A stretch of 32,533 nucleotides of DNA, taken from Prochlorococcus sp. AG-402-G06 (lineage in GTDB: Bacteria; Cyanobacteriota; Cyanobacteriia; PCC-6307; Cyanobiaceae). The translations under genes and the position numbers were made by a program. The notes beneath the pieces are model-generated. The model did not search any database. It worked only from the letters and a program-made list of their open reading frames with translations, and was not told the DNA's origin. Every line of letters starts with the position of its first letter. The stretch's first letter is position 1. Where the stretch lies: NCBI GenBank assembly GCA_003277985.1, contig QCHR01000015.1:1-32533 (forward strand), written 5' to 3'. Below are positions 2,941 through 6,713 of this stretch, piece by piece.

Positions 2941-4185
2941 ATGACTCCTGAGCGGCTGGGCTTGCTCTGGGGTATCACAGTTTTTTCTGGAGCTGGAGCA
3001 AGATTACTTTCAGTTTTAACAGGACTTCCTGGGGTAGTTTTATTGTTGCTATCTGGCTTGTTGATTGGGAGATCAGGTCTTGGATTGGTTGAACCTTTAG
3101 ATCTTGGTAAAGGTTTGGAGACAATAGTTGGTTTGCTGGTAAGCCTTGTTTTATTTGATGGTGGATTAAATCTTCGATTTCCAGGTGGGGCAATTAAGTC
3201 AATAGTTCTAAGAATTTCTTCAATTAGATTAATTATTTCTTTAGCAGCTGGCTTCCTTGCTGCTCACTGGTTTGCAGGACTTGGCTGGTCAGTAGCAGGA
3301 GTTTATAGCGCAATTGTTCTCGCTACCGGGCCAACTGTTGTAACTCCATTAGTTCGACAAATTCGACTTGCCTCTCCATTAAGTGATGTTCTAGAGGCTG
3401 AAGGGTTGATCCTCGAACCTATCGGAGCAGTTCTTGCGCTTTTGTTGTTAGAACTCGTTGTTGGCGATTTGCATGGCTGGAGAGAACTATTTCTTGGTTT
3501 GCTTTCAAGGCTTGGAGGAGGAGTCTTAATTGGATCACTTGCAGGCCTGTTTCTTTCAGAAGGTTTAAAGCGTTTACGTTCTGAGCCTTATATCGGGATC
3601 AGATTGCAATTGACTCTCGGAGTAATTTTCTTGCTTTATGGGGTATGTGAATGGTTATTACCTGAATCAGGATTGCCTGCATCTGTTGCAGCAGGTTTTG
3701 TTGTAGGACAAAGACCTTCTACTGAGGCGAATGAACTTGATAAATTAATAAGAGAATTAGCTCAGTTAGCAATAACTATGCTTTTCCCCCTCCTGGCAGC
3801 AGATGTTTCATGGGGGGAATTGAGTCCATTGGGATGGGGTGGGATAACTTGCGTTCTCTTTTTAATGATTATAGTTCGACCAATCGCTGTATCAATTGCT
3901 ACTTATGGATTGCCTCTTGATAATAAACAAAGATTGTTTCTTGGTTGGTTAGCTCCCCGTGGAATAGTTACTGCTGCAGTTGCGTCTTTATTCTCTATTA
4001 GATTGGAGCAAGCAGGTGTTTTAGGGGCTGGAAAACTTCAGGGATTAGTTTTTTTGACAATATTAATGACTGTAGGAATACAAGGTTTAACAGCGCAACC
4101 TTTTGCAAAAATGTTGGGTTTATTGGATGAAGAGAAAGATTTAGATAAACCGACTAATTCGGGCTCTATCTTTACTGAATCTTGA
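2941..4185 (+). CDS. Monovalent cation:proton antiporter, CPA1/NhaP type
   Basis: A 414-residue polytopic inner-membrane protein of about 11-13 helices from end to end. It belongs to the Na+/H+ exchanger superfamily, which swaps Na+ or K+ for protons to control pH and ions. VLFDGGLNL lies at 70-78. The discontinuous-helix signature appears as [11 protein letters not shown] (127-137), followed by [12 protein letters not shown] (153-164). In many relatives the latter motif reads 'D-P-I-G' with Asp; here residue 159 is Glu. [12 protein letters not shown] near the C-terminus is also typical. ATG start at 2941, about 170 bp after the DUF1643 gene. Its last 45 bp overlap the 3' end of gltX on the other strand. 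Ion specificity cannot be read. Confidence 0.85.
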
Positions 4186-5571
4186 GAGTAAAACCCAACT
4201 TTGAATTAAATCAGGACCGTTAAGAGTTCCAAAAAGTGCAGCTCTAAGGCTTTTCATAACAAGACCTTTTTTCACTTCGCAGTTCTTTGTCGCCTGATTT
4301 ATTAAATCAAGCGCTTCATCTTTACTGAATTTTGAGGCATCTGAGTTTCCCAACTTTTCAAGAATAAAATTTAAAATTTCTGCAGCTTCTTTTACTTTCA
4401 ATTGCTTTCTTCCATCATCACTTAAAGCTGGTTCTTCAAAAAAAGGTTTAGCTTGATCAACCCCATCATTAATAAGAACCATTGAAGGTCCTATTAAGCT
4501 TATGAGATTGATCCCCCATTCTTTACTTGGAAGGTGCCATCCATTCTCTTTAAACATAGGATTTAAATTTTCTAGTAATGTTTCGGCTGGCATCTCATGG
4601 ATTACTTGAGAGTTGAGCCAGTTCAATTTGTCCCAATCAAATTTTGCTGAAGCTTTATTAACCTTTTTAAAACTGAAAATCTCTGAAATCTCCGAAATTT
4701 TGAATCTTTCATTAATTCCTTCTGGAGCAGACCAGCCAAGTAGAGTCATATAGTTTGCCATCGCTTCAGATGTGTAACCCATTTTTTTGAATTCAGAAAT
4801 TGAAGTGACCCCATCCCTTTTTGAAAGTTTTTTGCCTTCAGAATTTAAAATCAAAGGAGTATGTGCGAAAACTGGAATACTTAGTCCAAGGGCTTCGTAA
4901 AGGAGAATTTGCTTTGCTGTATTTGCAAGATGATCTTCTCCCCTTATTACATGGGAGATTTTCATTGCTGAATCGTCTGCTACAACAACCAAATTGTACA
5001 GGGGATCTCCAATTGAATTTGCTGGTGCTCTTCTTGCAATGACCATATCACCGCCTAAATCTTTTCCACTCCAATTCATTTCCCCTCGAATCAAGTCATT
5101 CCATGAAATTAATTTTTGATCACTGATTTTGAATCTGATAACAGGTTCTCTTCCAACCTTTATAAATTCTGATTCCTGCTCTGGAGTTAAGTTTCTATGC
5201 CTATTGTCATATTTTGGAGCTAAACCATTTCTCTTTTGAGCTTCTCTCATTTCATCTAGTTCAGCTTCTGATACATAACACCTGTATGCAAAACCTTTAT
5301 CGAGAAGAGTTCTTATGATTTTTTTGTGTTCATTTACTCTTTCACTTTGAATTGTGGGGGATTCATCCCAGTTGATTCCTAGCCATTTGAGTCCATCAAA
5401 AATGTTTTTTATGTACTCTTCTTTTGATCTTTCAATATCAGTATCTTCAATTCTTAAGAGAAAAGTCCCACCTTCTTTTTTTGCAAATAGCCAATTAAAT
5501 AGTGCTGTTCTCGCTGTTCCTAGATGAAGCGTTCCAGTTGGACTTGGTGCCAATCTTACCCTAACTGTCAA
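4141..5571 (-). CDS. gltX: Glutamyl-tRNA synthetase GltX
   Basis: A class I aminoacyl-tRNA synthetase that charges tRNA-Glu. In cyanobacteria this feeds both translation and tetrapyrrole synthesis, and the enzyme is usually non-discriminating, also charging tRNA-Gln. From a TTG start at 5571 the protein has 476 residues and begins [19 protein letters not shown], with the HIGH-like HLGT at 16-19 and the KMSKS-like KLSKR at 248-252. RIEDTD follows the first motif as expected. The frame can be extended to an ATG at 5619, but that would run into tRNA-Asp, so the TTG is preferred. It lies 21 bp downstream of tRNA-Asp on the same strand and overlaps the antiporter gene tail to tail. Confidence 0.95.
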
Positions 5572-5592
5572 AGCTCTAATTTGATTTAGATA

Positions 5593-5666
5593 CGGGACCG
5601 ACGGGATTCGAACCCGCAACTTCCGCCGTGACAGGGCGGTGCTCTAACCAGTTGAACTACGGTCCC
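5593..5666 (-). tRNA. tRNA-Asp (GTC)
   Basis: Reading the minus strand, a 7-bp acceptor stem (GGGACCG with CGGTCCC) closes a full cloverleaf of 74 nt that ends in discriminator G at 5593. The D arm is TTCAACTGGTTAGA. The anticodon arm is CCGCC-CTGTCAC-GGCGG, giving anticodon GTC. The T arm contains GGTTCGAATCC. CCA is not encoded. It lies between the PSHCP gene and gltX, all on one strand. Confidence 0.97.
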
Positions 5667-5679
5667 AGATTTAGTCCTT

Positions 5680-5712
5680 AAAAAGGATTTTATCTTTCAT
5701 TAGAAATCCTTT
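5680..5712 (-). terminator. Hairpin with U-run just upstream of tRNA-Asp (terminator or attenuator)
   Basis: The arms AAAGGATTT (5682-5690) and AAATCCTTT (5704-5712) are perfectly complementary, with a 13-nt loop. Read on the minus strand, the core stem AGGATTT/AAATCCT is followed by five U residues (5684-5680). It lies 14 bp before the 5' end of tRNA-Asp. It could end the rplS-tRNA-Trp-PSHCP transcript or act as a leader attenuator. A competing small hairpin, TCCTT/AAGGA (5675-5687), overlaps it. Confidence 0.5.
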
Positions 5713-5726
5713 CCATTGACCCAATG

Positions 5727-5756
5727 AGTATCATCCTAAAAACGCCTTCTAGTCAA
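5727..5756 (-). promoter_or_regulatory. Candidate promoter for tRNA-Asp/gltX
   Basis: On the minus strand, TTGACT (5756-5751) is a 5/6 match to a -35 box. It is separated by 18 bp from GATACT (5732-5727), a 4/6 match to a -10 box. A start near 5720 would put the hairpin with U-run into a short leader in front of tRNA-Asp. This is motif inspection only. Confidence 0.35.
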
Positions 5757-5778
5757 CTAAGAATTAATTTTGTTGACT
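5751..5778. repeat. 7-bp inverted repeat overlapping a candidate -35 box
   Basis: AGTCAAC (5751-5757) and GTTGACT (5772-5778) are perfect reverse complements 14 bp apart. The left arm contains the candidate -35 box of the tRNA-Asp/gltX promoter. The geometry resembles an operator for a dimeric regulator, but chance cannot be excluded in A+T-rich DNA. Confidence 0.45.
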
Positions 5779-5867
5779 TAAGAAAACTATCTTTATGAGG
5801 TTTTTTTCAATCTAATTCTCTTTGAAGAGAGATGCTCATGAAATAAAACTAAACAAGTAGATGATTT

Positions 5868-6056
5868 TTAAGGACGAAAACCTGCAGGCTCTATGAGCCT
5901 AACTTGATTCCCACGAGCTGTGAACTCGCGGCCTTGGTCGCTTTGAACTACTACACGGCCACCTGATTTTACACGAATAACTCGAGCTCTGACCCAGCCT
6001 AATGCAGCTGATTCAAGAACTTTTACGACATCGCCAGGTTGAAGATCCAACTCCAT
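5868..6056 (-). CDS. Prochlorococcus/Synechococcus hyper-conserved protein (PSHCP), small Tudor-like protein
   Basis: A 62-residue basic protein that starts MELDLQPGDVVKVLES and ends RLIEPAGFRP. I recognise it as PSHCP, reported as essentially invariant in Prochlorococcus and marine Synechococcus and absent elsewhere. From memory, published work found it with ribosomal and photosystem-related proteins in pull-downs, and a solution structure showed a Tudor (SH3-like barrel) fold that binds RNA. The sequence fits a small five-strand barrel: PGDVVKV, WVRARVIRVK, GRVVVQSD, REFTARG, QVRLIE. Twelve of its residues are Arg or Lys, consistent with RNA contact. The gene sits between tRNA-Trp (35 bp upstream) and tRNA-Asp (201 bp downstream), and rplS and gltX flank the pair on the same strand. 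ATG start. Confidence 0.88.
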   Translation of the reverse strand: MELDLQPGDVVKVLESAALGWVRARVIRVKSGGRVVVQSDQGREFTARGNQVRLIEPAGFRP

Positions 6057-6091
6057 TCTTTAAAAAAGTAACTGCAGAAAGGGTTTTCGAA

Positions 6092-6164
6092 CGCGCCGTG
6101 GAGGACTTGAACCCCCGACATCAGGTTTTGGAGACCTGCGTTCTACCAACTGAACTAACGGCGC
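6092..6164 (-). tRNA. tRNA-Trp (CCA)
   Basis: The minus strand folds into a 73-nt cloverleaf. The acceptor stem is GCGCCGT/ACGGCGC with discriminator G at 6092. The D arm contains TTCAGTTGGTAGAA. The anticodon arm is CAGGT-CTCCAAA-ACCTG, giving anticodon CCA. The T arm contains GGTTCAAGTCC. The terminal CCA is not encoded. It lies between rplS and the PSHCP gene. Confidence 0.97.
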
Positions 6165-6180
6165 ATTTTATATGCCCTTT

Positions 6181-6203
6181 AAGTCATTGTTGTCCAATGA
6201 CTT
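6181..6203. repeat. 9-bp perfect hairpin between rplS and tRNA-Trp
   Basis: AAGTCATTG (6181-6189) and CAATGACTT (6195-6203) form a perfect 9-bp stem with a 5-nt loop, 21 bp after the rplS stop and 16 bp before tRNA-Trp. On the minus (coding) strand no U-run follows, so a classical terminator is unlikely. It could be an RNA 3'-end stabiliser or a processing signal separating rplS mRNA from the tRNA. Confidence 0.55.
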
Positions 6204-6224
6204 TTGATTGAGGAGGCCGAAACC

Positions 6225-6713
6225 TCAGCGGTCGAAGCGCTGCTTTACGCGTGTGGCTTTGCCCACTCGCTCACGCAGATAGAAAAGCTTCGCTCTTCTT
6301 ACTTTACCTCGGCGCTCAACCTTAATGGATGCAACCTGAGGACTGTGAACCAGAAAAATTCTTTCAACTCCTATTCCTTGGAAAATTCTCCTAACTGTAA
6401 TTGTTTGATGAATGCCTCCATGTCGCTTTGCTATTACAACCCCTTCATAGGGCTGAACCCTTTCCTTATTACCCTCACTTATCCTGACACCAACACGAAC
6501 AGTGTCTCCAACGTAAATATCTGGGAGATCTTTGCTTTGTTGTGCATCTTCAAAAGTCTTTATTATTTCTGCAGGAGAGAGCTTTTTGATTGAGATTTTC
6601 TTTCCTATGGTTTTTTTATCTGAAGCAATTTTTACTCCAGATGCCTCTGAAATATTTGATTCATCTTCAACTTTTACCTCTTCTGATGAGGTTTCTTGCG
6701 AATCAACGGACAT
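6225..6713 (-). CDS. rplS: 50S ribosomal protein L19
   Basis: 162 residues from the ATG at 6713; a TTG and a GTG one and two codons upstream are possible but less likely. The first 48 or so residues are a polar, acidic-then-lysine-rich extension found in picocyanobacterial L19. The L19 domain follows: [69 protein letters not shown] and [10 protein letters not shown]19 lies at the interface of the two ribosomal subunits. tRNA-Trp and the PSHCP gene follow on the same strand. A minus-strand TACAAT box at 6749-6744 could be its -10. Confidence 0.95.

Follow-up and report, generated by a model that had tools for sequence, protein, structure and literature searches.

What can the position of a gene tell us about the role of its product? 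The question is raised by a small gene in a window of 32,533 nucleotides from Prochlorococcus sp. AG-402-G06 (contig QCHR01000015.1; "the window" is the whole stretch of DNA that was analysed). An earlier note had recognised the encoded protein as PSHCP, a nearly invariant Tudor-fold protein, and had argued from its placement among translation genes for a role in tRNA or ribosome function. The photosynthetic cells that make PSHCP are very abundant, and its sequence is conserved to an extreme degree. The basic finding is already known, in that the protein, the gene order, the transcripts and the pull-down partners have been in print since 2014, in a paper that describes PSHCP as invariant, in one gene order, across every genome examined there (Whidden 2014, PMC4215834). 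Within the literature searched, the present analysis adds the gene order in outgroups and the uneven spacing of the two tRNA genes.

The features that matter here are the following, in the order in which the minus strand reads:

6225-6713, minus strand: rplS (ribosomal protein L19), ATG at 6713; TIGR01024 at 155.5 bits, cut-off 90.7 (NCBIfam)
6091-6165, minus strand: tRNA-Trp (CCA); ARAGORN, Rfam tRNA at 68.9 bits
6057-6090, minus strand: 34-nt leader from tRNA-Trp to the PSHCP ATG, from the ORF and tRNA coordinates
5868-6056, minus strand: PSHCP coding sequence, 62 amino acids, ATG start; ORF call and identity to PDB 6nnb
5668-5867, minus strand: spacer from PSHCP to tRNA-Asp with a promoter-like TTGACT-N18-GATACT, the -10 stopping about 59 nt short of tRNA-Asp
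5592-5667, minus strand: tRNA-Asp (GTC); ARAGORN, Rfam tRNA at 68.5 bits
about 4141-5571, minus strand: gltX (glutamate-tRNA ligase), TTG start; TIGR00464 at 531.9 bits against a cut-off of 289.95 (NCBIfam)

The minus-strand order rplS, tRNA-Trp, 62-residue ORF, tRNA-Asp and gltX, as the earlier note described it, is confirmed by the ORFs, ARAGORN and NCBIfam; gltX lies outside the 5593-6713 span which that note treated, yet is placed as it said.

Identity, fold and distribution of the protein

The 62-residue protein was correctly named, as its identity to 6nnb, Foldseek and the family alignment all indicate. Residues 1-56 are 100% identical to 'Prochlorococcus/Synechococcus Hyper Conserved Protein' in PDB entry 6nnb (E = 2.4e-31), titled 'Solution structure of the Tudor domain of PSHCP', and residues 1-62 are 100% identical to proteins in genomes of the picocyanobacterial family. 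AlphaFold2 models the protein with five strands (best pLDDT 86.1; five models, 57.8-86.1), and the sole PDB match to this model below E 0.001 is again 6nnb (E = 8.8e-07, TM 0.74), with Spt4:Spt5, a myosin SH3-like domain and many Tudor domains ranked below it. PSHCP is thus predicted to be a five-stranded Tudor barrel like 6nnb, and in this it resembles the small barrels of the Tudor, Agenet and SH3-like kind (TDRD3, PHF20, PHF1 and the myosin N-terminal domain; TM by query length about 0.6-0.8). No Pfam family exceeds its cut-off for the protein, SH3_1 (PF00018) reaching 22.0 bits against a gathering threshold of 22.9 (E = 0.00012). The KOW domain of MutS2, a protein of ribosome rescue, is locally 38% identical to PSHCP over 34 columns in the picocyanobacterial family's own MutS2. 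We considered this domain as an ancestor and do not favour it: hhalign gives a probability of 71.9 over the 34 columns, with a weak score and a register about one strand off that of the predicted barrel, and the two are probably not homologous in that register. In protein, in the order rplS-trnW-PSHCP-trnD-gltX and in clade, the locus is identical to what 6nnb and the 2014 paper describe, the window showing no difference from them (Whidden 2014, PMC4215834).

A match to PSHCP was found in 363 of 400 genomes of the picocyanobacterial family (E <= 0.001), so the observation in the window is not due to chance. The 37 misses comprise 20 listed genomes, all less than 90% complete, and 17 unlisted ones worked out from the match list; these 17, and two partial cases, were searched for rplS. 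Among good-quality family genomes the count is 247 of 251. Has the gene been lost from the other four? G168 and G382 yielded no rplS either, and the G352 contig stops 42 nt past tRNA-Trp, where PSHCP would begin, so that these three look like assembly gaps; G182, in which one contig stops right after rplS and another contig end has a partial second rplS, trnD and gltX, may be either a gap or a loss. In five draft genomes (G151, G182, G352, G254 and G299) the contigs are interrupted somewhere from the rplS end to the PSHCP end, perhaps due to the strain-to-strain likeness of this stretch. Six extra in-family matches were set aside: L201 is L-aspartate oxidase and L204 is MutS2 (both by NCBIfam), L202-L203 and L205 are the same two proteins, respectively, by likeness, and L200 is a low-complexity frame.

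Outside the family, none of the 324 other genomes of the class has a match at E <= 0.001 (best 0.007). This search covered 388 genomes; the 64 listed matches all belong to the picocyanobacterial family, and no family member is among the 20 misses listed, nearest kin first. The best match lies between E 0.007 and 1 in 78 of the 324, and four of these 78 (L181-L184), inspected by eye, hold no credible homologue. Viral contigs gave 34 pattern matches and no relative, and no copies were found in phages and plasmids. Against viral models, Foldseek returned one match below 0.001 (5.4e-04, 24% identity, nameless), which we take to be a common small barrel. One metagenome-assembled contig, titled Bifidobacterium breve, has PSHCP together with the full picocyanobacterial neighbourhood (L107); the title is almost surely wrong.

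Constraint on the protein and on its gene

For the alignment, 175 loci were gathered, of which 161 are unique (the fragment L229 was left out). This set is not random: the early loci are best matches, and variants were added deliberately. They include 34 of the 363 matched genomes, fetched for an E-value that looked too high for the size of the genome, which proved to be 32 variant proteins and 2 cuts by contig ends. In this set PSHCP is identical to that of the window over all 62 residues in 129 of 161 loci, 35 of them with a two-residue tail, and identical over residues 4-60 in 143. Over the same loci, the median identity to the window (best local match) is 70.7% for RplS (n = 156) and 62.2% for GltX (n = 152).

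Is it the protein or the DNA that is held constant? In the 129 genes with identical amino acids, third positions vary in 60 of the 62 codons (those for Met and Trp cannot). Of 26 four-fold codons, 24 occur with each of the four bases, and GC3 spans 0.16 to 0.79. Since third positions, four-fold codons and GC3 are so variable, the strong constraint acts on the protein and not on the DNA, whose silent sites are nearly saturated. Lys30 is kept in 161 of 161 loci, which, given so little variation, tells nothing in particular of that residue. Some divergent proteins occur: in genus g9 (L111-L120) PSHCP starts at residue 3 and carries V10L and L19M, with tRNA-Asp at 562-574 nt in 10 of 10 loci, and in L224 (L260 in its longer form) the start has likewise moved to residue 3.

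Silent variation is lower at the very start of the gene, at 0.25 in codons 2-7 against 0.74 elsewhere (30 loci). A regulatory RNA element at this point was considered and rejected, because psaC, used as a control, behaves equally (0.28 against 0.76 in the 18 of 30 psaC loci that could be parsed, from different genomes) and because the PSHCP leaders contain no conserved fold (z 0.37 in 63 thinned leaders). The leader is somewhat better conserved in PSHCP (26.8 bits) than in psaC (17.3 bits), a comparison over the 10 genomes that could be matched out of 13, with kinship ignored. In the last 33 nt before the ATG (157 leaders), a pattern near TGCAGTTTCCTAGTTTTGAGA recurs across many, though not all, lineages.

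Gene order, spacing and the age of the neighbourhood

Wherever a locus of the family can show it, the order is the same. Of the 161 loci, 158 have tRNA-Trp upstream of PSHCP, with a leader of 32-49 nt between the two in every case; the remaining three start too near a contig end. tRNA-Asp was found downstream in 155 of 161 loci at first look; five others end within 700 nt, and L224, which had seemed to be a locus without tRNA-Asp, shows it in the longer stretch L260, 1435 nt on and followed by gltX, giving 156 of 156 loci able to show it. The distance from PSHCP to tRNA-Asp ranges from 112 to 1435 nt; among the 155 loci first measured, 19 have it above 500 nt, as does L224. tRNA-Trp is therefore an evenly spaced close neighbour of PSHCP, and tRNA-Asp a looser one, yet always present where visible; the fixed order with both tRNA genes held across genomes, with no separation seen. 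The interval before tRNA-Asp can contain other frames: one that looks by eye like a flavin reductase in L224/L260, and in L024 (of which L048 is a duplicate) and L052 a frame on the opposite strand, some 330 codons long and by eye resembling LysR, within about 1200 nt.

Does this constancy mean that PSHCP acts on its neighbours? The outgroups bear on this question. Of 34 outgroup genomes, 33 yielded rplS, and the gene order was read at 30 loci, with up to four printed frames each. In 18 of them rplS-trnW is followed by a frame recognised by eye as secE (with a nusG frame also in 17, and one pair confirmed by NCBIfam), in 7 trnW is followed by other genes, in 2 no trnW is visible, one of these being cut by a contig end, and in 3 (L158, L160 and L161) trnW is followed by trnD. 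Family f10, which we take to be Prochlorotrichaceae, has rplS-trnW-trnD-gltX without PSHCP in 4 of 4 loci (L161 and L197-L199; rplS came from 4 of 6 genomes). Family f11, which we believe to be Synechococcus elongatus, has rplS-trnW-trnD without PSHCP in 2 of 2, gltX being absent from the stretch fetched. The six trnW-trnD gaps of f10 and f11 (116-390 nt) yielded no proto-PSHCP: among 36 real and 1800 shuffled frames scored with a PSHCP profile, shuffled frames took each of the first 15 ranks. In a tree of RplS, f10 is sister to the picocyanobacterial family with support of 87/67, and f11 is unplaced (120 columns, modest support).

The presence of rplS-trnW-trnD without PSHCP in 6 of 6 f10 and f11 loci suggests that the neighbourhood rplS-trnW-trnD(-gltX) is probably older than PSHCP. 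The simplest reading is that PSHCP would have joined an existing neighbourhood on the stem of the family; a possible alternative is that PSHCP was lost in f10, in f11 and in the remaining families. If the order is the older of the two, the constancy of PSHCP's address at least partly follows from it. And since the neighbours were probably together before PSHCP, its position argues only weakly that PSHCP acts on the tRNAs next to it.

The earlier note saw in those tRNAs the obvious candidates for the RNA target, such that PSHCP would act on tRNA-Trp and tRNA-Asp or on a joint tRNA-mRNA precursor. The order fixed wherever visible speaks for this (trnW in 158/158 at 32-49 nt, trnD in 156/156), as does the tRNA binding in vitro described below; but the outgroups have the tRNA/rplS/gltX order without PSHCP, trnD stands anywhere from 112 to 1435 nt away, twice past an opposite-strand gene, and of the 31 outgroup loci with tRNA-Trp, 17 keep the core of that tRNA unchanged, the two of f11 included. 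We regard such a role as improbable. The broader argument from placement to a tRNA or ribosome function keeps its premise, the fixed order, and is weakened by the outgroup order and by the loose spacing of trnD.

Transcription and possible roles

How is the gene transcribed? Terminator-like sites are scarce upstream of PSHCP (6 of 156 rplS-trnW gaps, 4 of 158 leaders). After PSHCP they occur in 38 of 155 gaps against 5 of 155 shuffled ones and are lacking in the other 117, the window included, where a scan of the 5668-5867 spacer found none after the PSHCP stop. Past trnW, 3 of 6 outgroup loci have one, both f11 loci among them. Promoter calls here are consensus matches and denote candidate sites. 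Ahead of trnD the best score averages 8.48 of 12 against 7.68 in shuffled sequence, and TTGACN-N16-19-[TG]A[TC]A[CA]T, a pattern written after the sites had been seen, occurs in 90 of 155 loci (missing in 65) against 5 of 3100 shuffles. TTGACA precedes trnD in 5 of 5 outgroup gaps scanned and, by eye, in the sixth, L161. Such matches suggest that trnD has its own promoter in at least many strains. The rplS-trnW gap has no promoter excess (6.75 against 7.02 shuffled).

Upstream of PSHCP the best promoter-like sites mostly score just 7 of 12, and the commonest, TTGGTA/CCTGAT, lies within trnW. Of the 31 outgroup tRNA-Trp loci, 17 (both f11 loci among them) keep the tRNA core that holds it and 14 (all four f10 loci among them) depart from it, and thus the site is not specific to carriers of PSHCP. 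Whidden 2014 (PMC4215834) gives predicted promoters within and past trnW. It also cites an earlier report that PSHCP shares transcripts with rplS, trnW and trnD, gltX being excluded, and co-transcription of PSHCP with trnD for two strains. By RT-qPCR, transcripts spanning all of rplS and PSHCP made up less than 2% of the pool, and MIT 9313 and WH 8102 have an excess of transcripts without trnW (Whidden 2014, PMC4215834). At less than 2%, one long transcript would be at most a precursor. Perhaps the cutting of an rplS-trnW-PSHCP precursor at the 3' end of tRNA-Trp, rather than a promoter within trnW, is the main source of PSHCP mRNA. This origin is compatible with the even leader (158 of 158 loci at 32-49 nt), with the scarce upstream terminators and with the published trnW-less transcripts, and also with the best site within trnW, which scores 7 of 12 and consists of tRNA core sequence that 17 of 31 PSHCP-free outgroup loci share; nevertheless we hold it to be doubtful. 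If true, the amount of PSHCP would be tied to tRNA-Trp maturation and to the transcription of a ribosome gene. In the window the gltX TTG stands only 20 nt past the 3' end of tRNA-Asp (5571-5592), and the 5' end of the gltX mRNA, too, may depend on tRNA processing.

What, then, does the protein do? A structure paper in JBC from 2019 reportedly found that PSHCP binds tRNA in vitro, more tightly than DNA, with a patch at Lys30. The earlier note's remark that the RNA target is unsettled would accordingly stand for the cell only, general binding of tRNA having reportedly been measured in vitro already.

The reading that we favour is that PSHCP would be an RNA-binding protein of Tudor fold, confined to the picocyanobacterial family. 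The gene would have arisen or been inserted on the family's stem, between old rplS-trnW and old trnD(-gltX) pairs; its expression would be closely tied to trnW, by read-through and processing or by a start in or just past trnW, and trnD would have its own promoter in at least many strains. Present in large amounts, the protein would bind tRNA and rRNA irrespective of sequence and assist translation near the ribosome, and would not be a factor for its two neighbour tRNAs. We consider this general role the most likely because of the published abundance, the L2 pull-down and the reported tRNA binding, and we put the probability of the whole reading at about 0.5. Its identity, fold, distribution, protein constraint, gene-order history and spacing are those observed above; the stem origin, the mode of transcription and the step from binding to cellular function are its conditional parts. 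For abundance, pull-down and transcripts it draws on Whidden 2014 (PMC4215834), in which the amount of PSHCP is on the order of RbcL and its changes parallel those of translation genes. Against it stand PsaD and Ycf48, which came down with L2, the published transcripts, which disfavour a dominant long rplS-PSHCP mRNA, the co-transcription with trnD cited for two strains, and the trnD motif and the terminator, missing in 65 of 155 and 117 of 155 loci, respectively.

The pull-downs also admit two more specific readings. PSHCP might be a clade-specific ribosomal protein at one fixed 50S site near L2. L2 was pulled down in all three strains, PSHCP is basic, and the 23S rRNA carries non-compensatory changes close to L2 (Whidden 2014, PMC4215834); the near-total invariance of the protein points the same way, as do its position after rplS and the terminator-like sites in just 6 of 156 rplS-trnW gaps. 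The bait, however, was a tagged recombinant protein that yielded few peptides, and PsaD and Ycf48 were recovered as well (Whidden 2014, PMC4215834), so we think a fixed ribosomal site unlikely. Those two partners could instead mean that PSHCP connects ribosomes to photosystem assembly: PsaD and a Ycf48-like protein appear in the pull-downs of all three strains, but on one to four peptides per strain (Whidden 2014, PMC4215834), and the genome context seen here gives such a connection no support, which leaves it very improbable.

Two consequences follow from the gene-order history. A neighbourhood that is probably older than PSHCP weakens 'guilt by neighbours' as a functional argument, and an origin of PSHCP on one stem branch would pose a concrete question: which change in translation took place on that branch?
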